A stretch of 53,487 nucleotides of DNA from an uncultured Thermoguttaceae bacterium (GTDB taxonomy: Bacteria > Planctomycetota > Planctomycetia > Pirellulales > Thermoguttaceae), in assembly GCA_937951625.1 (NCBI GenBank), contig CALFBP010000030.1:1-53487 (forward strand), written 5' to 3'. Shown here one piece after another: positions 34,600-50,100 of this stretch. The notes below the pieces were generated by a model. That model saw only the letters and a program-made list of their open reading frames with translations. It did not search any database and had not been told where the DNA came from. Position 1 is the first letter of the stretch, and every line of letters begins with the position of its first letter. The position numbers and the translations under genes were made by a program.

Positions 34600-35637
34600 T
34601 CAGTCGAAAACGATTCGGCCGGGCAATTCCGCCGTCGGCCGATGATCGTGGATTGAGGGATCGGAGCGTACCAACCACGAGGCCGCCGTGGCGATCGTGT
34701 TGGCATTCGGGTAGTAGGCTTGTTCCAAGGTCCGGCTGGTAGGAGCGGGAGTATCAGGTAAGCAGACCCGAACTGGAGCAGCCTTGAGATGTCGGAACAC
34801 TCGGCTCACCACGGCGGCCACGATCTCCGCGGCCACTCCGCCGGTGGCCCACGTTCCATCGGCAACAAGCAATCGACCCGTTTTGATGACCGAATTGCAC
34901 ACCGTATCTTTGTCCCACGGCTTGATCGTGCGCAAGTCGATCACTTCTGCTTCGATGCCTTGCTCCTTCAGCCGATCCGCGGCGTGTAAAGCGACTTGAA
35001 CCATGTAGGAGCTTGCGACCACGGTGATGTCGTTCCCTCTGCGTCGCACGGCTGCGACCCCAAGGGGGGTCATGTACATGTGCCTGGGTACAGGGCCGGT
35101 GATTCCGTAAAGCCAACGATCGTCGATATAAAGGACCGGATTGCCATCGTAGACCGCGGCGACGAGGAGGCCTTTTGCGTCCTCTGGGGTGGCTGGCATC
35201 ACGACTTTGACCCCAGGTACGTGCATGAAAAACGCCTGGAGGGCTTGGGAGTGCTGAGCCCCTTGTTCGCCGCCACGGTTGATGATTGGTCGAACCACGA
35301 GCGGTACGCCGATCTGCCCGGCGAATAAGTAAGACCAATTGGCGGCTTGGTTTACGATGGGATCGACCGCCAGCGTCATGAAATCCATGCGGGGATGGAC
35401 CACGATCGGTCGCATCCCAGAAAGTGCCGCCCCAACGGCCGCGCCCGTGGTCGCGTTCTCCGAAACCGGACAGTCGATGATTCGGTTCCGTCCGAACTCC
35501 TTTTCCAAGTCGGTCATCGTGTTGCCCACATACCAAGGGCTCCAAAGCCCCTGGCCAATCACAAACACACGATCATCCTCAGAGAGCAATTGTTGATGGG
35601 CTTCGCGGATGGCCGCGGCGTAACTCAACTCTCGCAT
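34600..35637 (-). CDS. 2-oxoacid dehydrogenase E1-type beta subunit (TPP enzyme), polysaccharide-locus paralogue
   Basis: The 345-residue protein is the pyrimidine-binding half of a heterotetrameric thiamin-diphosphate enzyme. It has the catalytic Glu60 in PVSENATTGAAVGAA, the QAANWSYLFAG helix, VVRPIINRGGEQGAQHSQ with His129, and a transketolase C-terminal domain (DITVVASSYMVQVALHAADR, then IDLRTIKPWD). The ATG at 35637 has a GGAGGAA site. It follows the alpha gene by 85 bases. No E2 (lipoyl acyltransferase) or E3 gene is present. Context in a glycan cluster suggests a sugar-modifying C2 transfer instead of acyl-CoA synthesis (inference). Confidence 0.9.
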   Translation of the reverse strand: MRELSYAAAIREAHQQLLSEDDRVFVIGQGLWSPWYVGNTMTDLEKEFGRNRIIDCPVSENATTGAAVGAALSGMRPIVVHPRMDFMTLAVDPIVNQAANWSYLFAGQIGVPLVVRPIINRGGEQGAQHSQALQAFFMHVPGVKVVMPATPEDAKGLLVAAVYDGNPVLYIDDRWLYGITGPVPRHMYMTPLGVAAVRRRGNDITVVASSYMVQVALHAADRLKEQGIEAEVIDLRTIKPWDKDTVCNSVIKTGRLLVADGTWATGGVAAEIVAAVVSRVFRHLKAAPVRVCLPDTPAPTSRTLEQAYYPNANTIATAASWLVRSDPSIHDHRPTAELPGRIVFD

Positions 35638-35722
35638 TGACGTTCCTCCGAATCGCAAGGAAGGCAGGCCGTAAGGCGCAATCGGGGGTGATGGATGGCC
35701 CACCGGCTTGAAGGAGCCCTTT

Positions 35723-36736
35723 TCACGCTGCTTCGCGGATCGACGGCATGAACCACGGCAAGTCCAGCGGCGCTGCGGCACAGTAGACGTGGTGCAGGAG
35801 CTCCCCTTCATCAGGCCAGGGGGCGGCTCGGGCCTCGGCTTCGGCCTGGGCGATGCTGTCCTGGACCGACTGCTCGATGGCCGAGAGCTCTGCCTCGGTA
35901 ACCCCCAGCTTTCGAAGTCGCTCCTTCGCACGGCGAATGGGGCATCGCGCAAGCCAGTCGTGGAGTTCGTCGCGTCGTTTGAGGCCCACGTCGATGTCCC
36001 AGCGGGGCCCCACGTGTCCCCGCCAGCGATAGGTCCGACACTCTAAAAACGACGGACCGGCTCCGGCACGGGCCCGCTCCATAGCCCGGAGCGATGCCTC
36101 GTGGACGGCTTCTACATCGTTTCCATCCAGGCAAATGCCGGGAATCCGGTAGAGTGATCCGACTTCATGGAGGTTGGCAGCAGGCCGACGCTCGCTCCAA
36201 TGCAAATGACTGGCATATTGATTGTTTTCGCAAACGAAGATCACCGGCAGCTTGTACACCGCGGCCAGGTTGAGGGACTCATGGAAGTGGCCCTCCTCCG
36301 TGGCCCCGTCGCCGAAGAACGCCACGCTCACGCAGCCGTCGCGCCGCAGGCTCGAAGCAAGCGCGGCGCCGACCGCCAAGGGAATCGTCGCCGCCACGAT
36401 CGGTACGGTACCCAAAATTCCTTGATCCTTGGCGATCAGGTGCATCGAACCACCGCGACCGTGAGCGCAGCCCGTCGCTTTCCCGAGGATTTCCGCGAAC
36501 AGACCCGTGAGACTTGCCTCTCGGGCTAAATAGTGGCCGTGCGAGCGATGGTTCCCCCACAGCGTGTCGCCAGCCCGCATCGCCGTGCCAACACCAACGG
36601 CAATGGCCTCTTGACCAATGTAAAGATGGCAAGGACACCGCGCCTCACCCCTTTCCACCCAATCGCCGATCTTCTCCTCGGCAGAGCGGATGAGTAGCAT
36701 CAGGCGATAGCATTGGCACAATGTCTCGCGATTCAT
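35723..36736 (-). CDS. 2-oxoacid dehydrogenase E1-type alpha subunit (TPP enzyme), polysaccharide-locus paralogue
   Basis: The 337-residue protein carries the thiamin-diphosphate motif FGDGATEEG (GDG at 142-144) ending in the Asn pair at 171-172, and NHRSHGHYLA with the active-site histidines. Near residue 240, where pyruvate dehydrogenase alpha subunits have a GHSMSDP-type loop, it reads GHVGPRWD, a clear departure. Its ATG overlaps the stop of the aminotransferase gene (ATGA) and GGAGGG lies upstream, so the two are coupled. The alpha and beta chains should form one enzyme. Its role is probably in nucleotide-sugar chemistry, as argued in the findings. Confidence 0.9.
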   Translation of the reverse strand: MNRETLCQCYRLMLLIRSAEEKIGDWVERGEARCPCHLYIGQEAIAVGVGTAMRAGDTLWGNHRSHGHYLAREASLTGLFAEILGKATGCAHGRGGSMHLIAKDQGILGTVPIVAATIPLAVGAALASSLRRDGCVSVAFFGDGATEEGHFHESLNLAAVYKLPVIFVCENNQYASHLHWSERRPAANLHEVGSLYRIPGICLDGNDVEAVHEASLRAMERARAGAGPSFLECRTYRWRGHVGPRWDIDVGLKRRDELHDWLARCPIRRAKERLRKLGVTEAELSAIEQSVQDSIAQAEAEARAAPWPDEGELLHHVYCAAAPLDLPWFMPSIREAA

Positions 36737-37866
36737 CCTTGCCCTCCGGAGAGATAGAACTCCCGAATGCAATCGCTTACGTAGGCGACATCGTCGTCAG
36801 TCAAGAACGCATGCATCGGAAGCAACAGCAGCCGTGTGAACAAGCTTTCAATGTACGGCAAACGTTGGGTAAAACCGAGCTTCGGAAATTGATGGACTGC
36901 CTTGCCGCCCCATTGGATCAGCGTCCCGATGCCTCGTTCGCGCAAATACGCTCGAAGGGCGTCGCGGTCTTCGGCCTCGATTTCGTAGTTTTGGAATACA
37001 TCGAAGTGGTCGGGGTCGGAATCGGGAGCCGGCGGCAGACGCAGTTGGGGTAAGTCGCCAAGCCGCTCCTGATACAGGGAGGCGATCTCACGGCGACGGG
37101 CCACGACCTGGTCGTACTGTTTTAATTTGAAATCCAGGATCGCGGCTTGGAGATTATCGAGCCGGGAATTGAGCCCCCACACCACGACCTCGCCGGATGC
37201 GTCGCGTCCGTGATCGTGCAGCAACAGGAGTTTGTCGTAGACCGCCGGATCGTTGGTCATCACACATCCACCGTCGCCGAGGCAACCGAGCGTTTTGGCG
37301 GGATAGAAACTGACGGCCCCGGCCACGCCGAAGGTCCCTGCCGCCTTCCCGCGGAATCGCGAGCCCAGCGCCTGAGCGGCATCCTCGACGATCATCAAAC
37401 CATGCTTCTCCGCAATGGCACCCAATGCCGCCATGTTGGCAGTTCGACCGTTGAGCTGCGTGGGCAAGATCGCCTTCGTACGAGGCGTGATGGCTGCTTC
37501 TACCGCCGCAGGATCGATCAAATGGTCGGCGCCGCACTCCACGGGCACGGGTGTGGCGCCCGAAAAATGAATCGCGGCGGCGGTAGCGACCATGGTGTGC
37601 GAACAGAAAATCACTTCGTCACCCGGCCCGATCCCCGCGGCACGCAACGCTAAAAGCAATCCATCGGTAGCGTTTGCCACACCGACGACGTATTTCACTC
37701 CCAGATAGCGTGCCAGATTCTCCTCGAATTGAGCCAAGTCGCGCTGCAAAATGAAGGCCCCGCGACGTCCAACGTCGGTGATCACGGCCAAAAGTTCTGC
37801 CTCTTGCGACGTAAATACCTTGGGATAGTCGAAGAAGGGGACCGTCTTTCGTGTAATGGTCTGCAT
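36733..37866 (-). CDS. DegT/DnrJ/EryC1/StrS-family sugar aminotransferase
   Basis: The 377-residue protein is a PLP enzyme that normally aminates keto groups of nucleotide sugars. It shows GVANATDGLLLALRAAGIGP, the GDEVIFCSHTMVAT block, IVEDAAQALGS with the PLP-binding Asp, and SFYPAKTLGCLGDGG with the Schiff-base Lys191. The C-terminal part is unusual: DVFQNYEIEAEDRDALRAYL and IQWGGKAVHQFPKLGF replace the more common H-x-Y segment before the R-D-x-L. Some family members are dehydratases that lack the lysine, but it is present here. Four-base overlap with the E1 alpha gene ties the two functions together. Confidence 0.92.
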   Translation of the reverse strand: MQTITRKTVPFFDYPKVFTSQEAELLAVITDVGRRGAFILQRDLAQFEENLARYLGVKYVVGVANATDGLLLALRAAGIGPGDEVIFCSHTMVATAAAIHFSGATPVPVECGADHLIDPAAVEAAITPRTKAILPTQLNGRTANMAALGAIAEKHGLMIVEDAAQALGSRFRGKAAGTFGVAGAVSFYPAKTLGCLGDGGCVMTNDPAVYDKLLLLHDHGRDASGEVVVWGLNSRLDNLQAAILDFKLKQYDQVVARRREIASLYQERLGDLPQLRLPPAPDSDPDHFDVFQNYEIEAEDRDALRAYLRERGIGTLIQWGGKAVHQFPKLGFTQRLPYIESLFTRLLLLPMHAFLTDDDVAYVSDCIREFYLSGGQG

Positions 37867-37912: not shown

Positions 37913-38632
37913 CTACGCAGCGGCGGAAAACTGGAACGAATCGCCACGCCGCTGCGCCGCCTCTTCCGCGATAATCTTTTCCACCTCGGCTCGCATTTCG
38001 GCAAACGTGGGATAGCCTTTCAGCTCTTTGGGCACCCAATCCTTGCGGAAAATCTTGACGATGGTGTAGAGGATGATCTTCAAGTCGCCCCAAAAGCTCC
38101 GAGTGTCGTAGTAGAGCATTTGCAGTCGAAGCTTGGTCGGCCGAATCACCGCTTCATAGACTGCATCGGGATCCGCCGTGCCCTCGAGTAGTCTCCCCTC
38201 ATCGGCGTTCCAGATCGACGCCCAATCCGTGATTCCGGGCCGCAATTCGAGGATCTTCCGCTGCTCGCCCCGGAGCGTCTCGATCTTGTCGACCACCTCC
38301 GGACGCGGCCCCACAAGGCTCATGTCTCCCAAAATGACATTGAAGAGCTGACTCAGTTCATCGAGCTTGAAACGTCGGATGAAGCGGCCGCTTCGGGTAA
38401 CTCGGGGATCGTCTCCCGAAGTCGACGGTCCACCAAGGCGATCGGCGTTCATCACCATCGACCGAAACTTGAAAATGCGAAATGGCCTGCCGTGGCGTCC
38501 TGCCCTTCGTCCGCGATAGAAAACCGGCCCAGGCGAATCCAATTTGATCCACAGTGCAATTCCTAGTAGCAACGGCGAAAAAACGATCAATCCGACCAAC
38601 GCCACCGTCAAATCAAACAGCCGCTTTAGCAT
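37913..38632 (-). CDS. undecaprenyl-phosphate sugar-1-phosphate transferase (initiating glycosyltransferase)
   Basis: The 239-residue protein belongs to the bacterial sugar transferase (PHPT) family that loads the first sugar-1-phosphate onto undecaprenyl phosphate at the membrane. It has one N-terminal hydrophobic helix (residues about 5-30, the re-entrant helix), then SPGPVFYRGRRAGRHGRPF, the diagnostic KFRSM, and DELSQLFNVILGDMSLVGPR with the catalytic Asp-Glu. This is the short single-domain form, as in PglC or the C-terminal part of WbaP. The ATG at 38632 is preferred to one three codons earlier because GGAGG then lies nine bases upstream. It overlaps the methyltransferase gene by 20 bases. 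Confidence 0.94.
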   Translation of the reverse strand: MLKRLFDLTVALVGLIVFSPLLLGIALWIKLDSPGPVFYRGRRAGRHGRPFRIFKFRSMVMNADRLGGPSTSGDDPRVTRSGRFIRRFKLDELSQLFNVILGDMSLVGPRPEVVDKIETLRGEQRKILELRPGITDWASIWNADEGRLLEGTADPDAVYEAVIRPTKLRLQMLYYDTRSFWGDLKIILYTIVKIFRKDWVPKELKGYPTFAEMRAEVEKIIAEEAAQRRGDSFQFSAAA

Positions 38633-39410
38633 ACACGTCATCCTCCGTGAACTCCGATAACATTGTTGGTTGGTCGTGGTCGGAAGCTGCCAAAGAAGTC
38701 GAATGGCCCGACTTCCGCAAAAGGTACGCTACTTGCCCCACAAGGAAGGGGCAAACACGACGGACCAGGAAATACATGCTGGGTGCGAAGCGGGAAAGGA
38801 ATCGCCCCACTGGAGGCACCAACGCGCCCCGCTGTGTCTTTAAAAGTTCGACGTCCGAACCAGAAAAGAACAGGCGTCGCAGTCGGTCCCGAGTCAAAGC
38901 CTTATACGCGGGATCCCCGGGCCGCGGCATCCACCAGTCGACCAAGAGCAAATATCCGCCCGGCCGGCAGACGCGAATCATTTCTCGGGCAATGCCGGCG
39001 CATAAAGCATCGTCGGGCAGCGTGGCGAACATGGTCGATTCGAAGACCAGGTCAAACGTCCCATCGGGGAAGTCCATGCAACTGGCGTCCCCTTGCACGA
39101 ATCGGATCTGAGGATAGAGCCGCCGAGCCGCCGCGATCCGTTCAGCTAAGATGTCGATCCCCACCACGTTCTCAGGCGCATAGCCCAGTCGAAGCAACTG
39201 AAAAAGATCGGCGCCGCTACCGCAACCAACGTCCAACAGCTTCGCCTGAGCCGGGTCGTGCTGGATAGCGTAGCACGCTTGGACGACGGACCCCTCCATC
39301 GCAAGCGCTTGGAATAGCACGCCGCGATTCGTCCGCAGGTCATTGCGGTTCGCGCATCGCTTCCCATAATAGGTGCGATACCACTCCCTGGTACTCCCCT
39401 CCCGACTCAT
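38613..39410 (-). CDS. class I SAM-dependent methyltransferase
   Basis: The 265-residue protein has the SAM-binding motif LLDVGCGSG (residues 58-66), an acidic second strand VVGIDILAERI, QGDASCMDFPDGTFDLVFES and VCRPGGYLLLVDWW. This is a Methyltransf_11-type Rossmann domain. It lies between glycosyltransferase genes and likely methylates a sugar or glycan chain, perhaps as chain terminator. The acceptor is unknown. The gene overlaps its upstream GT4 neighbour by four bases and the downstream transferase gene by 20. Confidence 0.88.
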   Translation of the reverse strand: MSREGSTREWYRTYYGKRCANRNDLRTNRGVLFQALAMEGSVVQACYAIQHDPAQAKLLDVGCGSGADLFQLLRLGYAPENVVGIDILAERIAAARRLYPQIRFVQGDASCMDFPDGTFDLVFESTMFATLPDDALCAGIAREMIRVCRPGGYLLLVDWWMPRPGDPAYKALTRDRLRRLFFSGSDVELLKTQRGALVPPVGRFLSRFAPSMYFLVRRVCPFLVGQVAYLLRKSGHSTSLAASDHDQPTMLSEFTEDDVYAKAAV

Positions 39411-41455: not shown

Positions 41456-42754
41456 TTAGGCGGCCTTGTGGCGGCGCCCGGACTCAGGTCGTTGCACCGT
41501 GACTTTAACACGATTCGAGTCAACTGCGGCAATTCGTTGCAGCAGGGCTTTCACGGTCGAACGGACGGAAAATTGTGCTTCCACTCGCTGCCTGCCGAGG
41601 TCAGATAATTTGGATCGTAGGCGGGGATCATGAAGAACACTGCCGATGGCGTCGGCGAGCGCTGCTGCGTCGGCCGGCGGAACCAAAATGCCAGCACCCC
41701 GAAGAAGTTCCGGTATCCCCCCGGTGGTGGTCGAAATCGTGGGAACACCGAAGGCCATTGCCTCGATTAGAGTTACCGGAATGCCCTCATGCACGTGGCC
41801 CCCCAAATCCACGCTGGGCAATACCACCGCGTCTACTTGATGATTGCGATAAAAGGCGAGGATTTCTTCGTGAGGAAGCTGCCCGACAAGGCTTACGCGG
41901 TCCGTAATCTGATCCGTCCGCACTTGCTGCTCGATTGCATGACGCAAAGGGCCCTCGCCGGCAATAATCAGGTGGCACGGCACTCCTGCTCGTTTCAAGA
42001 TCGAAATCGCCTGGAGCAAATAACGATGGCCCTTCACGGGCAAAAGATTCGCAGGACACAGGATGCGGCCAAGTGGTCGTTCAGACGGTTCCCCTACGAC
42101 GTGTTGCTCCGTGGCCACGCCCATATGGATGACGCAGACGTTCCGAATCGCATCGCGGCCGGCGATCGTTGCGATTAAGCGTCGTCCACTCTCCGAAATG
42201 ACGCGAACAAACGAGGCATCCAGGGCCTTGGCCCGCAAAAGGTTGTTATCAACGATGTCTCCGCGATGCGCTGTGAAACTCCAAGCAATGCCGGATACGC
42301 GACTCGCAATCATGGCCATCGTCGCGGTCGTCGACGCCCAATGAGCGTGAATATGACTTACCCCGCGAAGCTGCACCAAGTCGGCCAACCAGAGCGCCTT
42401 CGGCACGACCAAGAGATTTTTGGCGAGTACCCACGGGTCTCTACTTTTTCTCAGCACAGCGATTGCCGCAGAGATGGGATATCGACGTTCCGAACAAACT
42501 TTTGCCGCGGCGCGGAGGATGCACCTCGAAAACAACGGCTCGGCGACCGTCCGCTCGAGAAGCGGCCTTGCGTCCTGATGGATCACGCTGCCGCGGCAAC
42601 TTCGGGGAATGAGCAGAACTTCCGCCCCTTGACGCCCGTATTCTAAAACTTCCGGAATAAGGAAAGCCTCTTGTGGGCCAAAGGGCATGCCCGCCGTGAT
42701 GCAGGCCACTTTTACCAAGCCCCGCTGCCGCGCCAGACAATCGATGGCATTCAT
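41456..42754 (-). CDS. glycosyltransferase family 4 (GT-B), colanic-acid type
   Basis: The 432-residue protein shows VKVACITAGMPFGPQEAFLIPEV in its acceptor domain, SHIHAHWASTTATMAMIAS (as in WcaL/AmsK-like enzymes), and in the donor domain RILCPANLLPVKGHRYLLQA, HLIIAGEGPLR and HEGIPVTLIEAMAFGVPTIS with the E-x7-E pair. It should add a sugar to the growing repeat unit. The ATG at 42754 overlaps the Wzy stop by four bases, which fixes the start better than the TTG at 42787. A gap of about 160 bases separates it from the GNAT gene. Confidence 0.93.
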   Translation of the reverse strand: MNAIDCLARQRGLVKVACITAGMPFGPQEAFLIPEVLEYGRQGAEVLLIPRSCRGSVIHQDARPLLERTVAEPLFSRCILRAAAKVCSERRYPISAAIAVLRKSRDPWVLAKNLLVVPKALWLADLVQLRGVSHIHAHWASTTATMAMIASRVSGIAWSFTAHRGDIVDNNLLRAKALDASFVRVISESGRRLIATIAGRDAIRNVCVIHMGVATEQHVVGEPSERPLGRILCPANLLPVKGHRYLLQAISILKRAGVPCHLIIAGEGPLRHAIEQQVRTDQITDRVSLVGQLPHEEILAFYRNHQVDAVVLPSVDLGGHVHEGIPVTLIEAMAFGVPTISTTTGGIPELLRGAGILVPPADAAALADAIGSVLHDPRLRSKLSDLGRQRVEAQFSVRSTVKALLQRIAAVDSNRVKVTVQRPESGRRHKAA

Positions 42755-44265
42755 GCGTGGGAGGCTCCCGACTTGTTGCCGTTCCAACCTGCGTGAAACT
42801 CGTGCCGCAAGAAACTTCGCAGTCGAGGTAGGTAGCCCAGAACTACAAAAGGAAGTGTAAGCATCAGTCCAGTCTTAAATTGTCCGACGATTCCTGAGCG
42901 AACAGAAGCCGCAGCCACGCTCAACATCGCTCCATAGGCCAAAAGGACGATGTCATAGCGGATAAAGCCCATAAACCACTGATAAAGCCGCTCTAAAATC
43001 CATCCGGTAGTCGCCATCATGATGAATACTCCGGGCAGGCCATAGATCCAATAACCCTCCTGCAAAATAAAGAATGCGTACCCCTTACCCAAGGAGAGCG
43101 CCCCAGGCTCCATGATCTCAGTAAATTGCTCAGCTAACGAAAGAGGCCGTTGGGAAAAGAAAACCCGCGGGATGAACACCAGCAGCTCAGAGAGAATCGA
43201 GGCGCCATAAGTAAAGGTCGTTTCGCCATCTTCAATGAAACGGATCTGCGCCATCAGGTTTTGGGCGGTTAAGAATTCGGAGGAGCGCGTCAAGCCGAAA
43301 ATAGCAAAACTTTCAGCCTCCCATTCAGCAACAACGAGCTTAATCATCTCCACCGGATTATTAGTGAATCGGGCGATCGACATGGCCGTGACAAAAACAT
43401 ACCCGGCGCCCAAGCAGAGAACGATCGTTTTGAGATTCAAGGATCTGATGCGGTAATGATAGTAGGCCACCACCATGATCACTGCACCGATCACCTCTCC
43501 ACGAAATCCGCCGCGAAGCGGTACCATAAGATACGCCACGATCGTGACGAGTCCGATCATGGCGAGCACGGGGTGCCTTGCTCGGAAAAGTTCGAGAATG
43601 GCGGCCCCGTAAAGACCTTGCGCGGGCACGCGTGCGAGCACACTCTGAAATACCGCCGCTGGATCATCTGCCCATTGAAGGCGAACCTCACACGCGACTT
43701 CTGAATAAGCTGCCACGCCGAAAGGGTTGAAAAATCCGATCACATATCTCCACAGCGGGATGCCAAGAAGCAAGCCATATGACCAAAGATGATCGAGACA
43801 CTCGCCATTCGGCATCACCCATTGCGGCGGGGCCAGCCGCGCAAGGCGTCGCGATCGCAACTGCCTGATCCAGGACCCAAGAATCAAACCTGTCAATCCA
43901 ACGATGCTGCACGAATAAAACGTGTGAAGGATATCATCATTGATCAGCACCCCATGATAGGTGACGTCTTCCTGCCGTGCCGCCGCAGCAGAACTTGTCG
44001 TGTAAAGATAGAGCAGAACGCAAATCAAGATCAACGGATGAAGCCAATCGCCGTTGCCCTCTCTTACGTGCTGCGTGACAAAAATCGTGATCAATGCCCA
44101 AGATGTAATTTGGAACGCTGACCAGCGCCAAGCTTCTTCAGAGGCCGCATAACAGGAAGCGACGTAGAAAAGCAGAACAATTGCCAAGCTTGCCCAGTAA
44201 ATCGGGGATGGGCCGAGGGGATGTTTTCGACTATGCTCGGAAAGTACTGGACGAACATTCGTCAT
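42751..44265 (-). CDS. Wzy-like polysaccharide (O-antigen) polymerase
   Basis: The 504-residue integral membrane protein has about eleven to twelve hydrophobic helices and a large loop in the C-terminal half (GDETTF-like region with TYGASILSELLVFIPRVFF and the SLGKGYAFFILQEGYW segment). This pattern is typical of O-antigen/exopolysaccharide polymerases, which show little sequence conservation. Adjacent Wzx and glycosyltransferases support the assignment. It is translationally coupled to the following GT4 gene. Local base composition is lower in GC than the rest of the window. Confidence 0.8.
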   Translation of the reverse strand: MTNVRPVLSEHSRKHPLGPSPIYWASLAIVLLFYVASCYAASEEAWRWSAFQITSWALITIFVTQHVREGNGDWLHPLILICVLLYLYTTSSAAAARQEDVTYHGVLINDDILHTFYSCSIVGLTGLILGSWIRQLRSRRLARLAPPQWVMPNGECLDHLWSYGLLLGIPLWRYVIGFFNPFGVAAYSEVACEVRLQWADDPAAVFQSVLARVPAQGLYGAAILELFRARHPVLAMIGLVTIVAYLMVPLRGGFRGEVIGAVIMVVAYYHYRIRSLNLKTIVLCLGAGYVFVTAMSIARFTNNPVEMIKLVVAEWEAESFAIFGLTRSSEFLTAQNLMAQIRFIEDGETTFTYGASILSELLVFIPRVFFSQRPLSLAEQFTEIMEPGALSLGKGYAFFILQEGYWIYGLPGVFIMMATTGWILERLYQWFMGFIRYDIVLLAYGAMLSVAAASVRSGIVGQFKTGLMLTLPFVVLGYLPRLRSFLRHEFHAGWNGNKSGASHA

Positions 44266-44597: not shown

Positions 44598-46283
44598 TCA
44601 TGAGTGCGCTTGACTTCCCCCGCTGCATTCGACACTACGAAGAGGCTGGACAGAGCAGGGACGCTTTGGAAACTCAGGCTTCGAAACGAAAAAGGTGTGA
44701 GCGGCTCTCAGCAGGTGAGAGATCATTTGGGCGGGCATGGGGGTGGTCGCAATTGCGACCAGGGTGAGCGCTCCCCAAAGAAGTCCTAGAAGCGCAAGTC
44801 CACCAAAAAGGGAATGGGGCCAAACGACAAGAGATCGCAGAATTAGAGTGATCGTAGCTACCACGCACAACGGCTGGATAACGGAATAGCGAAGCCATTT
44901 CTTGAATTGGCAGGAGAGGAACCGCTGATGCATGCGCCACATGAGCAGTAAGGAGATCATAACGCGCACCACGACCCAGGCAGTTGCTGCGCCGACCCCG
45001 CTGGCATGGAGTACCGCAAAATAAAGAGCAGCGATCAGGATCGGTATACCGAGGAGATGCGCTTCGAGGACGAGTCGGGTGGAGCCGTAAGCCCACTGGA
45101 CGATGATGGGCACGTAGGTAATTGCACCAATCAATGCACCGCATGTCACGATCGAGAGAAGGGGAGAGACATGCCGCGCCAACACAGGATCACGGAGCCA
45201 TAGCTGGAGAAGTTCGGGCGCAAAGAGGATGCAAACCGCGGCCAAAGGGATTACTGTTACCGCGACCCACTGCGATGCCTGGTGGTAAAGAAGACTAATT
45301 CCGCGGGTATCGCCAAGGGCGGCCTTTCTCACAAAGCCGGGGAATGTACCGGTTGCGATCGGGTGATAGAACAAATAAAGACTGCCTGCCAAGGTCCAAG
45401 CAAGGTTATAATGAGCGAACTCTTCTAAGGGGAGCCATTTACTCAAGACAATCTTGTCTAACTGAACGAAAGCTAGAGTAGCTAGGGTGGCGCAGGTTAG
45501 CCCGGTGGTGAAACGCCCAACGCGATGAAGGATCGCCATGCGGAACACCGGCGGTTTTTTGTCTCGGGGCAGCACGTGCCATAACGTAAAAGCCGTTCCT
45601 GACACATGCAGCAGATTCGCTAAAACTTGCCAAGAAAAAAAAGCAAGAATGGAGGAATCTGCGAAAACAAGTACACAAGCAGCCCCCCCGTATCGGAAGG
45701 CTAGAAACGCGCTATTGAGCGCGTTGCAGAGGACGTGTCTTTCAAGTCCGAACAGTCCGCTCGTGTAAAACGTTACCGGCCATTGAAGGGCGATACTAAT
45801 ACCCATCAAGGCAACGGCCACGTGAATGGTTTGGCTCCGAAGACTTACGGCGTTGATCCAGTGACTGGCAATGAATCCGGATAGGCTTGCAATGGTCGCA
45901 CCAATGGTCGCAGCTATTAGCCAATAAATGATTTCGAGCGTGCGAACCGTGTCGCGCATGTCGCCCGCTTCATTTGGGATCCCAGAGCGCCGGGCCAGTT
46001 CACGATTCAGCGTGGTGCTGAAGCCGAAATCAAAAACGAAGAAGGCTGCCTGAAGCGTGGCATAAAATGCAAAGAGTCCGAACGCTTCGACCCCTAACCA
46101 TCGGACATAGAGGGGAATAACGGCCAAATTCAGCAGAGCCGCCCAACTTTTGCCGAAAAAGTTGGCTAACGTGTTTACCCAAATGCCGCCTAGTGCGAGC
46201 TGGTTCCCCGCAGCCACTGTGGTCGAAGCTCCTGCTTTTCCCGCCTGATGGGATTGCATGTGCGACGGGCTGCTTTCCGTCAT
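44598..46283 (-). CDS. Wzx-like polysaccharide flippase (MOP superfamily)
   Basis: The 561-residue membrane protein has about twelve to fourteen helices. The N-terminal block NTLANFFGKSWAALLNLAVI followed by PLYVRWLGVEAFGLFAFYAT is characteristic of Wzx/RfbX flippases that turn lipid-linked repeat units across the inner membrane. It heads the minus-strand polysaccharide cluster, with the polymerase 330 bases downstream. The first 25 residues are polar. The C-terminus after about residue 520 is an unusual hydrophilic tail. Base composition is strikingly AT-rich locally (for example 24 G+C of 60 at 45421-45480, counted by hand). Confidence 0.9.
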   Translation of the reverse strand: MTESSPSHMQSHQAGKAGASTTVAAGNQLALGGIWVNTLANFFGKSWAALLNLAVIPLYVRWLGVEAFGLFAFYATLQAAFFVFDFGFSTTLNRELARRSGIPNEAGDMRDTVRTLEIIYWLIAATIGATIASLSGFIASHWINAVSLRSQTIHVAVALMGISIALQWPVTFYTSGLFGLERHVLCNALNSAFLAFRYGGAACVLVFADSSILAFFSWQVLANLLHVSGTAFTLWHVLPRDKKPPVFRMAILHRVGRFTTGLTCATLATLAFVQLDKIVLSKWLPLEEFAHYNLAWTLAGSLYLFYHPIATGTFPGFVRKAALGDTRGISLLYHQASQWVAVTVIPLAAVCILFAPELLQLWLRDPVLARHVSPLLSIVTCGALIGAITYVPIIVQWAYGSTRLVLEAHLLGIPILIAALYFAVLHASGVGAATAWVVVRVMISLLLMWRMHQRFLSCQFKKWLRYSVIQPLCVVATITLILRSLVVWPHSLFGGLALLGLLWGALTLVAIATTPMPAQMISHLLRAAHTFFVSKPEFPKRPCSVQPLRSVECSGGSQAHS

Positions 46284-46984: not shown

Positions 46985-49690
46985 TCACACCCTTGCGGGA
47001 TTAGGTTTCTCGGGATCGAGGCCCAGTTGTCGCGCCGCGGCGTGAACGTTGGATTTGTTATAACGCCCTTGTTCGGCCAGGGCATTCAACGCCGCCAAGG
47101 CGATGTTTTCCGCGTCGACCTCGAAAAATCGCCGCAAGCGAGCCCGATCCTCGCTGCGGCCGAAGCCGTCGGTCCCGAGCACCGTGTACGGTTGGGGAAC
47201 CCAGGGCGCGATGGAGAGGCCGAGTGCGGCGACGTAATCCAGGGCAGCTACGACGGGGCCGTCGCGCCCTTTCAAGACCTGCGTCACGTAGGGCGTGCGG
47301 GGCGGTTCTTCCGGATGGAGGCGGTTCCAACGCTGACAGTCCCGGGCATCCTCGTAAAGGGCTTTGTAGCTGGTCACACTGAACACGGTACTGGAGACGC
47401 CGAACTGTGATTCCAAGAGATCTTGGGCCCGGAGCGCCTCGCGCAAGATCGCCCCGCTGCCGAACAATTGCACCTTGGGCTTTTGGGAGCCTAGGTCGCG
47501 ATCCGACAGGGGGTAGATGCCGCGGCAGATGCCTTCTGTGGAGCCCATCGGCAGGACGGGATGTTCGTAGTTTTCATTCATCAAGGTGACGTAGTAGAAC
47601 ACGTCTTCCTTCTCGTAATACATCCGGCGGATACCGTCGAGGATGATGACGGACATTTCGTAGGCATAGCAGGGGTCGTAGGCCTGGACCGTGGGGTAGG
47701 ACAGGGCGGTCAGGTGGCTGTTTCCGTCCTGGTGCTGGAGGCCCTCGCCGGCCAAGGTCGTGCGCCCCGCCGTACCGCCGAGCAGGAATCCCCGGCAACG
47801 CATGTCGCCCGCGGCCCAAATCAAGTCGCCGATCCGCTGGAAACCGAACATCGAGTAGTAAATGAAGAAGGGGATCATCGGCACGCCATGACTCGAGTGG
47901 GCACTGGCGGCGGCGATGAACGAGGCCATGGAGCCCGCTTCGGTGATCCCTTCTTCGAGGATCTGCCCATCCCTCGCCTCTCGGTAATACAGCACGGTGT
48001 CCGAATCCACCGGTTCGTAGAGTTGGCCCACGTGCGAGTAAATGCCGAATTGGCGGAATAGGGCCTCCATGCCGAAGGTGCGGGCCTCATCCGGGACGAT
48101 GGGGACGACGTAGCGACCGATATTCTTGTCGCGCATCAGTCTAGCCAACAAGCGGACGAAGGCCATGGTGGTGGAGACCGGGCGTCCCTCGCTGCCCGCA
48201 AAAAACTCCGCGTAGTCCTCCCATTTCGGCGGTTTGAGCACGATCTTCGCCCGGCCGCGACTGGGGACGGGACCGCCGAGTTCCTTGCGGCGGGCGCGGA
48301 GGTACTGGATTTCGGGACTATTGTCGGGCGGCCGATAGAACGGAGCCTCGGCCACCTGATCTTCTGGAATGGGGATGTCGAAGCGGGCCCGGAATTCCCG
48401 TAGCTCGTCTTCGTTGAGCTTTTTCTGCTGGTGCGTGACGTTGCGTCCCTCCCCGGCCTCGCCCATACCGTAACCCTTGATCGTCTTGGCGAGGATTACG
48501 GTGGGAGCGTCCCGGCATTCGACCGCGGCTTTGTAGGCCGCGTAGACCTTCACGGGATCGTGGCCGCCGCGTTTGAGCCGTCGGATCTGTTCATCGGTCA
48601 GATCGGCGACGAGCGATTCCAGCCGAGGGTCCACGCCGAAAAAGTGTTTGCGGATGTAGCTGCCTGGCATGACCGTGTATTTTTGATATTGACCATCAAC
48701 CACTTCGGTCATGCGGCGGACGAGCACGCCATCGGCGTCCTTGGCCAATAGGGGGTCCCAATCCGAACCCCAGATGACTTTGATCACGTTCCAGCCCGCG
48801 CCGCGAAACGCCCCTTCCAGCTCTTGGATGATCTTACCGTTGCCGCGGACCGGCCCGTCCAGACGTTGGAGATTGCAGTTGACCACGAAGATCAGATTGT
48901 TGAGTTTCTCGCGTCCGGCGAGGGTGATGGCACCCAGGGTTTCTGGTTCATCGCATTCGCCGTCGCCGAGGAATGCCCACACGCGCGACTCGGCGGCGTC
49001 GGGCTTGATCCCCCGGTCGGCCAGATAATGATTGAACCGGGCTTGATAGATGGCCATGATCGGCCCCAGGCCCATGGACACGGTGGGAAACTCCCAGAAG
49101 TCGGGCATGAGCCACGGGTGCGGGTAGGAAGAGAGGCCGCCGCCGGGCGCAAGTTCGCGGCGGAAGTTCCTCAGTTGCTCCTCGGTGATGCGTCCTTCGA
49201 GGAACGCCCGAGCGTAAATCCCCGGCGCGGCGTGCCCTTGCACGTAAACCTGGTCGGGCGGCCTAGTCCCCTGTTTTCCCCGGAAGAAGTGGTTGAAAGC
49301 CACTTCATACAGCGTGGCTGCCGAGGCGAAGGTCGAAATGTGACCGCCAATTCCCGAGCTTTCCCGATTCGCCCGAACCACCATCGCCATGGCGTTCCAT
49401 CGAATGAGGCTTTTGATCCGGCGCTCCAAAGCACGATCGCCAGGATAGGGTGGTTCTTGGTCCGCCGGAATGGTGTTGACATACGGGGTCGTGGCGACGG
49501 ATGCACATCGTACCCCCCGGTTGAACGCAGTTTCCTGCACTCGTTGCAAAAGAAACGCTGCCCGTTCCGGTCCGGCGGTCTGAATCACCGACGCGATGGC
49601 GTCCTGCCATTCGGCGGTCTCTTGAGGATCGACATCTACTTGCGGAGCAATCAAGTCGCTTGCCAACTCCGATGCGGATTCTGGAGCCAT
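46985..49690 (-). CDS. aceE: pyruvate dehydrogenase E1 component, homodimeric
   Basis: AceE decarboxylates pyruvate with thiamin diphosphate and hands the acetyl group to the lipoyl E2 of the pyruvate dehydrogenase complex. The 901-residue product matches the single-chain E1 of about 890 residues. Visible features are ESSGIGGHISTFASAATLYE with the catalytic His region, FLGDGECDEPETLGAI ending in VVNCNLQRLDGPVRGN (thiamin motif), KTIKGYGMGEAGEGRNVTHQ, the pyrimidine domain with GITEAGSMASF (catalytic Glu), and the transketolase C-terminal domain. The ATG at 49690 is preferred over a GTG at 49741. No aceF or lpd gene is adjacent. It is separate from the E1 alpha/beta pair in the polysaccharide cluster. 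Confidence 0.96.
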   Translation of the reverse strand: MAPESASELASDLIAPQVDVDPQETAEWQDAIASVIQTAGPERAAFLLQRVQETAFNRGVRCASVATTPYVNTIPADQEPPYPGDRALERRIKSLIRWNAMAMVVRANRESSGIGGHISTFASAATLYEVAFNHFFRGKQGTRPPDQVYVQGHAAPGIYARAFLEGRITEEQLRNFRRELAPGGGLSSYPHPWLMPDFWEFPTVSMGLGPIMAIYQARFNHYLADRGIKPDAAESRVWAFLGDGECDEPETLGAITLAGREKLNNLIFVVNCNLQRLDGPVRGNGKIIQELEGAFRGAGWNVIKVIWGSDWDPLLAKDADGVLVRRMTEVVDGQYQKYTVMPGSYIRKHFFGVDPRLESLVADLTDEQIRRLKRGGHDPVKVYAAYKAAVECRDAPTVILAKTIKGYGMGEAGEGRNVTHQQKKLNEDELREFRARFDIPIPEDQVAEAPFYRPPDNSPEIQYLRARRKELGGPVPSRGRAKIVLKPPKWEDYAEFFAGSEGRPVSTTMAFVRLLARLMRDKNIGRYVVPIVPDEARTFGMEALFRQFGIYSHVGQLYEPVDSDTVLYYREARDGQILEEGITEAGSMASFIAAASAHSSHGVPMIPFFIYYSMFGFQRIGDLIWAAGDMRCRGFLLGGTAGRTTLAGEGLQHQDGNSHLTALSYPTVQAYDPCYAYEMSVIILDGIRRMYYEKEDVFYYVTLMNENYEHPVLPMGSTEGICRGIYPLSDRDLGSQKPKVQLFGSGAILREALRAQDLLESQFGVSSTVFSVTSYKALYEDARDCQRWNRLHPEEPPRTPYVTQVLKGRDGPVVAALDYVAALGLSIAPWVPQPYTVLGTDGFGRSEDRARLRRFFEVDAENIALAALNALAEQGRYNKSNVHAAARQLGLDPEKPNPARV

Positions 49691-50100
49691 GGTTGCACCT
49701 GAGCCTTGGTGTTCGAGAATCGAGGCAACGGGTTCGATCACGCCGGGCGGCCTTCGGCATGCGTGTTCTCAGGACGTCGCCCGCCGCGGCAATCTGGACC
49801 ATAATAGGGGTGCTGGACCGGAGCGTCAAACCCTCTTGATTTCTGTCCTACGGACGGGACCGTTGCAAGACGGCCTGCAATAAACTGTCGGCTGCGTCAA
49901 GTTTTTACTCCCATGCGAAGATGGACAGCGAAAGGTGGCCTTTGTTGCAAAAAAGACTGCGGTTGCCCAAATGTATTCGCGGGAAATATACTTCGAGCGA
50001 GTGGGAGTCAGTTTCTCACGAAAGCGACCTTGTCGCCACCGCAGCGGACCAAACAAAGGGTTCGTCGTGCTGGCGAGTTTTCGAAGGCGGAGACAATACG
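49691..50100. other. intergenic region between divergent aceE and a ceramidase-family gene
   Basis: The 410 bases hold divergent promoters but no gene I can support. An in-frame extension of the downstream gene back to 49921 is open, but its residues look random and lack a signal peptide. Confidence 0.35.

Follow-up and report, generated by a model that had tools for sequence, protein, structure and literature searches.

The stretch analysed here (the window) comprises 53,487 nucleotides from an uncultured Thermoguttaceae bacterium (contig CALFBP010000030.1). At the end of a Wzx/Wzy surface polysaccharide cluster, it carries two genes resembling the alpha and beta subunits of the E1 component of 2-oxoacid dehydrogenases. 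Judged from sequence comparisons, this E1 pair is probably an E2-independent carboligase, dependent on thiamin diphosphate (ThDP), that puts a two-carbon (C2) branch on a keto-sugar nucleotide, after which a DegT-type aminotransferase and then a phosphoglycosyl transferase (PGT) would act. A sequence-only reading of the window had proposed that the pair and the aminotransferase form a triad making a C2-branched (amino) sugar for a surface polysaccharide. This proposal is supported by the tree of E1 pairs, an altered loop, the linkage to DegT, PGT and 4,6-dehydratase genes, and the exchange of the E1 pair with a split transketolase in relatives. The genes concerned are the following.

34600..35637, minus strand: E1 beta-type ThDP subunit, carboligase candidate, 345 aa; Pfam Transket_pyr (9e-30) and Transketolase_C (9.8e-39)
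35723..36736, minus strand: E1 alpha-type ThDP subunit, 337 aa; Pfam E1_dh (3.6e-67); ThDP motif GDG-X26-NN
35996..36019, minus strand: loop GHVGPRWD in E1 alpha, of the type typical of the clade without E2
36733..37866, minus strand: DegT/DnrJ/EryC1/StrS aminotransferase, 377 aa; Pfam DegT (1.8e-94)
37913..38641, minus strand: Bac_transf (Pfam) PGT, the initiating enzyme

The coordinates of the open reading frames, the Pfam domains and the GDG-X26-NN motif confirmed that complete E1 alpha and beta genes close the Wzx/Wzy cluster. The overlap between the DegT stop TGA and the E1 alpha start ATG, read earlier as ATGA, was found at 36733-36736, and E1 alpha is separated from E1 beta by 85 bp.

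Below, G denotes a genome, L a fetched locus and C a contig (G079 = L257, G084 = L015, G091 = L016, G107 = L289). An order-wide E1 search (E 1e-70 or better) matched 10 of 146 genomes, including that of the window, and the neighbourhoods were examined. A wider scan was queried with an alignment of pairs lacking E2 and contributed the best 80 of 580 relatives, so the sample of 106 rows leans towards the clade without E2. Across the loci, 17 gene families were mapped by means of profiles made from the sequences analysed here; absence of a gene therefore holds at profile sensitivity and within the flanks fetched, several of which were short. The E1 tree has no row for L026, L035, L039, L045 and L062, which yielded no pair.

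In the alignment of 106 E1 alpha sequences, 85 rows had a loop of the H[VCA][GD] type, and none of them had an E2 within 5 kb. Fifteen rows had a pyruvate dehydrogenase (PDH)-type loop together with an E2. L162 and L163 had the PDH-type loop without an E2 match and were labelled as E2 rows in the tree; by eye, a lipoyl-type gene was seen downstream in L162 and none in L163. The remaining 4 of the 106 rows were unclassed by loop, which lay outside the matched stretch in L018, L063 and L109 and was divergent in L099; the tree placed all four in the clade without E2. Because the sample was drawn with E2-less sequences, the loop rule was checked on another draw from a Streptomyces-type genus, in which 76 of 246 genomes matched and 30 loci were returned. 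Two of these loci had HVGP and no E2 in a flank of approximately 1.5 kb, and the other 28 had different loops and an E2 match in every case. The Streptomyces-type searches yielded PDH pairs and two relatives of L028, a locus described below; a search of Actinomycetota matched 214 of 396 genomes, and three regions were used (G383, G275 and G342). The results showed that the difference between GHVGPRWD and the PDH alpha loop, already remarked on in the sequence-only reading, is a clade-level hallmark.

The tree of the combined E1 alpha and beta chains (106 rows and 638 columns, loop columns removed) was built by a quick method with no bootstrap, and support was taken from the Shimodaira-Hasegawa-like approximate likelihood ratio test (SH-aLRT). 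The 89 rows without a detected E2 formed one clade (SH-aLRT 100); all 17 rows of the PDH type fell outside it, 15 of them with an E2 match and the other two being L162 and L163. A position of the chains inside PDH or branched-chain 2-oxoacid dehydrogenase (BCKDH) with an E2 partner had been named in advance as the outcome that would refute the proposal. With E2-linked pairs in the tree, the window pair did not stand among them, and the proposal was not refuted. The window belongs to a 23-row subclade (SH-aLRT 100) composed of 22 PGT-linked rows and L056, whose contig stops 194 bases past the pair. This subclade spans 11 named phyla: Planctomycetota, Nitrospirota, Acidobacteriota, Bacteroidota, Omnitrophota, Myxococcota, Pseudomonadota, Gemmatimonadota, Verrucomicrobiota, Bdellovibrionota and Cyanobacteriota. 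The named strains carrying the cassette include Prochlorococcus marinus MIT 9302, Sphingomonas changbaiensis NBRC 104936 and Peristeroidobacter agariperforans KA5-B.

The order was also searched with the window DegT; 22 of 146 genomes matched, at 24 places in total, and of these only the one on C34 of G123 was left out of the fetched set. The six next-best DegT relatives (G079, G135, G123, G099, G083 and G018; 50-71% identity) all had a split transketolase, which immediately follows DegT in three of them (G079, G123 and G099) and lies at a distance of one gene in the other three (G135, G083 and G018). Its domains, a Transketolase_N half and a pyr/C half, were confirmed by Pfam in L257, L258 and L262, and the seven aligned halves of each kind showed an SDG or GDG motif and GVAEQ. 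G084, found in the same search, had an E1 pair, and 15 further DegT places had neither an E1 pair nor a split transketolase. The window and G079, from the window's family, share DegT (70% identity), PGT (71%), a methyltransferase (MT; 68%) and a GT4 glycosyltransferase (61%); in G079, three other genes lie between PGT and DegT. Within one genus, G091 has PGT and an aldo-keto reductase (AKR) followed by E1 alpha-beta, and G107 has PGT and AKR followed by a split transketolase (identities: AKR 61%, PGT 62%, upstream GT4 49%, long flanking gene on the far side 61%). Window/G079 and G091/G107 would be natural cluster pairs differing mainly in the carboligase. An order-wide PGT search (69 of 146 genomes matched) ranked the window, G079, G123, G099, G084, G135, G083, G006 and G018 highest, and all nine PGTs sit in a cluster with an E1 or transketolase pair; G091 ranked twelfth. 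Among 16 lower-ranked PGT loci examined, one had a ThDP pair (L289) and one had an AKR at the contig end (L290). Since E1 enzymes and transketolases both move C2 units, the exchange supports carboligation.

A DegT tree of 61 rows (23 linked to the PGT-linked E1 pairs, 6 to transketolases, 15 background DegTs of the order and 17 from other E1 clusters) was built by a quick method and contained two long branches. The DegTs adjoining PGT-linked E1 pairs (23) or transketolases (6) formed one 29-row clade (SH-aLRT 100), which included none of the 15 background DegTs and none of the 17 from other E1 clusters. In a more careful tree of 35 rows, a single clade of E1-linked DegTs was rejected by the approximately unbiased (AU) test (p-AU 1.1e-17), and a clade of the five nearest transketolase DegTs without the window was not rejected (p-AU 0.19). 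These topology tests support an exchange between E1 pair and transketolase, with the window's branch lying either inside or beside the transketolase group.

In the 23-row subclade, DegT was present in 21 of 23 loci; the other two, L016 and L036, had an AKR beside PGT instead. Of 25 PGT-linked loci (the window excluded, short contigs included), 14 carry a PglF/CapD-type 4,6-dehydratase, L040 as a partial match; of 76 other loci having E1 beta, the E2-linked ones among them, none does. In two representatives, the dehydratase was named by Pfam (Polysacc_synt_2) and NCBIfam (best match PseB, below its cut-off). Within this sample, the association with DegT, PGT and 4,6-dehydratase is specific to the clade.

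Other layouts were observed among E1 pairs without E2. In eight loci (L058, L063, L069, L071, L077, L080, L105 and L170), the pair occurs with a short-chain dehydrogenase/reductase (SDR), a methyltransferase and a separate acetolactate synthase-like ThDP enzyme, giving two ThDP enzymes per cluster, and several of these loci also have SIS or nucleotidyltransferase genes. In L020, L022, L027, L072, L076, L091, L097 and L101, it occurs with a GHMP kinase, DegT and SDR, often also with a nucleotidyltransferase and a radical S-adenosylmethionine (SAM) gene, which would fit action on a heptose-type sugar. L028 (10989-13035) is an HVGP-type E1 pair carried by pSGRIFU1, a plasmid of Streptomyces griseofuscus; it lies in a natural-product region, and the stretch viewed there, whose annotation is incomplete, shows no annotated sugar genes. 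L070, L086, L087 and L110 combine an E1 pair with a split transketolase pair.

We propose the following pathway. The E1 pair would decarboxylate an alpha-keto acid, most likely pyruvate, and transfer the resulting two-carbon acyl anion to a nucleotide sugar at its ketone; the likeliest acceptor is UDP-4-keto-6-deoxy-GlcNAc supplied by the PglF-type 4,6-dehydratase. This would yield a sugar that bears an acetyl branch and a tertiary alcohol. The branch ketone is then most likely aminated by DegT, giving a 1-aminoethyl group, and the AKR that replaces DegT in sister clusters would reduce this ketone to a 1-hydroxyethyl group. The adjacent PGT would load the branched sugar onto undecaprenyl phosphate as the first sugar of the Wzx/Wzy repeat unit. 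In the close relatives with a split transketolase, a hydroxyacetyl unit would be added instead of acetyl. More tentatively, at slightly less than even confidence, we suggest that these clusters represent a widespread glycan pathway with a C2-branched, undecaprenyl-linked first sugar, in which an exchangeable ThDP slot (acetyl or hydroxyacetyl) and ketone slot (amine or alcohol) give up to four branch types, including aminoethyl.

The pair might instead be an orphan E1 of a 2-oxoacid dehydrogenase complex, working in trans with the E2 of the genome. It has the E1_dh and Transket domains and the ThDP motif of PDH and BCKDH E1s, and its nearest solved sequences are E1s of these enzymes. However, it lies in a clade apart from the 17 PDH-type rows, its loop is altered, and it scores below the curated NCBIfam cut-offs for PDH (TIGR03182, 312 bits against 394 needed; NF006667, 288 against 321). 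A scan of the window with an E2 profile built here found no E2 (E3 was not searched for), which bears out the earlier claim that none lies near the pair. In the genome assembly (105 contigs, 97.9% complete), the single Pfam 2-oxoacid_dh (E2) match is on another contig, C4, and an AceE exists too. The exchange of the E1 pair with transketolase in relatives also argues against this explanation. On loop type, tree and E2 placement in the genome, a PDH or BCKDH E1 within a complex was rejected; a dehydrogenase E1 is unlikely, and we regard an orphan acting in trans as very improbable. A YerE-like, single-chain ThDP enzyme of the decarboxylase type was ruled out, as the window has two chains of the E1/transketolase type, and a split transketolase was ruled out for the window pair, as its alpha chain is E1_dh and not Transketolase_N (Pfam). 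Two further E1-like matches occur in the same genome, a fused gene on C72 and a weaker one on C90. On C72 (L026, 7213-10515), the fused E1 alpha/beta-like gene adjoins a lipoyl domain-ketoacyl synthase III (KAS III, FabH-type) protein, which was rejected as an E2 since Pfam gives a lipoyl domain and KAS III. This layout suggests that the acyl group is passed from E1 straight into the ketoacyl synthase.

Several observations weigh against the carboligase pathway. The trees contain no AviB, Pau11/12 or KbDH rows. The window lacks a recognisable 4,6-dehydratase, and the sole match in its genome at E 1e-20 is on C9, with 40% identity; none was found in the fetched stretches of the 7 transketolase loci and L289 either. 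L292, a PGT-DegT locus with no ThDP pair, has a partial 4,6-dehydratase match. Furthermore, the best solved matches of the window DegT and three cassette DegTs are DesV (2oga), QdtB, WbpE and 7b0d. DesV, QdtB and WbpE are ring C3-aminotransferases, which would also fit amination of the ring. With these matches, a plain C4-aminotransferase of the PglE/PseC type was rejected; the NCBIfam top rank for the window DegT is PseC, far below its cut-off. This likeness gives a small but real chance to a pathway in which the carboligase is the same and DegT aminates ring C3 or C4 before or after branching, giving a ring-amino, C2-branched sugar; the retention of DegT when the ThDP enzyme changes would fit it as well. 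On the other side, the DegTs of the cassettes are separated, as a clade of their own, from the 15 background DegTs of the order, and the two DegT-less E1 clusters have a likely ketone-reducing AKR beside PGT, which fits a shared branch-ketone substrate. It is less probable still that the C2 unit ends up on an aldehyde or an acceptor in open-chain form (chain extension or acyloin formation) instead of a ring ketone. Such an acceptor would suit those pairs of the wider clade that adjoin SIS, GHMP kinase and nucleotidyltransferase genes, as well as the region of L028; the window's subclade goes with PGT and, in 14 of 25 loci, with a 4,6-dehydratase, which point to a keto-sugar nucleotide. Branching of a ring ketone followed by amination of the branch is the pathway we prefer.

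The remaining features of the window are listed below.

38613..39410, minus strand: SAM methyltransferase (Pfam), with its counterpart in the transketolase-version locus L257
39407..40705, minus strand: GT4 glycosyltransferase (Pfam), likewise shared with L257
40702..41295, minus strand: acetyltransferase of the GNAT type (weakly matched by Pfam), which may N-acylate the amino group
41456..42787, minus strand: second GT4 glycosyltransferase (Pfam)
42751..44265, minus strand: Wzy-type O-antigen polymerase (Pfam)
44598..46283, minus strand: Wzx-type flippase (Pfam)
46985-49741: AceE, approximately 10 kb from E1 alpha

Read along the minus strand, the genes come in the order Wzx, Wzy, GT4, GNAT, GT4, MT, PGT, DegT, E1 alpha and E1 beta. 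The distance of the separate AceE agrees with that given in the sequence-only reading. The GNAT of the window and that of the L259 transketolase cluster had no detectable similarity, so the proposed N-acylation step is weak, and a shared GNAT was dropped as evidence for it.

Searches of open-licence literature aimed at this subject, judged by title and abstract opening, gave no account of such E1 pairs in surface polysaccharide clusters or of an E1-transketolase exchange, and aminoethyl-branched sugars in surface polysaccharides were not found by them. The exchange with transketolase appears to be new. If the pathway proposed here is correct, C2 branching of the E1 type would reach from antibiotic sugars to the surface polysaccharides of many phyla, a class of branched amino sugars is predicted in the named cassette-bearing strains, and the label pyruvate dehydrogenase for such pairs would be open to question. 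Through the E1/transketolase cluster pairs, a little-studied class of branched surface sugars becomes testable.

Among known systems, the Pgl pathway of bacillosamine uses PglF, PglE and PglC. The likeness lies in the PglF-type dehydratase (in related loci), DegT and the Bac_transf PGT. The window differs in having an extra ThDP pair and a DegT closer to DesV, QdtB and WbpE, and no PglD-type acetyltransferase was found among its cluster proteins scanned with Pfam.

The window pair shares the setting of the alpha-KADH2 pairs: E1 alpha and beta stand in a sugar cluster, no E2 accompanies them, and an aminotransferase or AKR is present as possible modifier of the branch ketone. Such alpha-KADH2 pairs are described as attaching C2 branches from pyruvate to sugar ketones, and KbDH-alpha/beta couples pyruvate to ketones of sugar analogues in vitro (PMC12247030). 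Pau11/Pau12, homologues of AviB1/AviB2, are proposed to act in the formation of paulomycose (PMC4425429, PMC4753412). All three are, like the window pair, E1 alpha/beta pairs of a sugar pathway, that of the window being without E2. They belong to antibiotic clusters, whereas the window type belongs to surface polysaccharide clusters with PGT in the 11 phyla. Approximately 120 gene clusters have alpha-KADH2 genes (Krug et al. 2024, via PMC12247030), and some of these may be of the surface polysaccharide kind. In paulomycin, the AKR Pau7 reduces the branch ketone (PMC4753412), comparable to the AKR in the sister clusters; branching is proposed to follow glycosyl transfer (PMC4425429), whereas the acceptor in the window would be a nucleotide sugar. 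Split transketolases have been put forward, with no proof in vitro, as the enzymes adding the hydroxyacetyl units of miharamycin and amipurimycin (PMC12247030). These are two-subunit ThDP enzymes thought to deliver C2 to a keto sugar, and the same type replaces the E1 pair in relatives of the window; the window itself has the E1 type and would give acetyl rather than hydroxyacetyl. YerE, in the yersiniose pathway of an O-antigen, transfers a C2 unit from pyruvate to the 4-keto sugar of a surface polysaccharide (PMC12247030); it is a single ThDP flavoprotein of the decarboxylase superfamily acting on a CDP sugar, and the window has an E1 alpha/beta pair. In kibdelomycin, the C2 branch is described as transaminated (PMC12247030), comparable to the action proposed for DegT beside the window pair. 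In our analysis, kibdelomycin is for this reason a closer precedent for the window than avilamycin.

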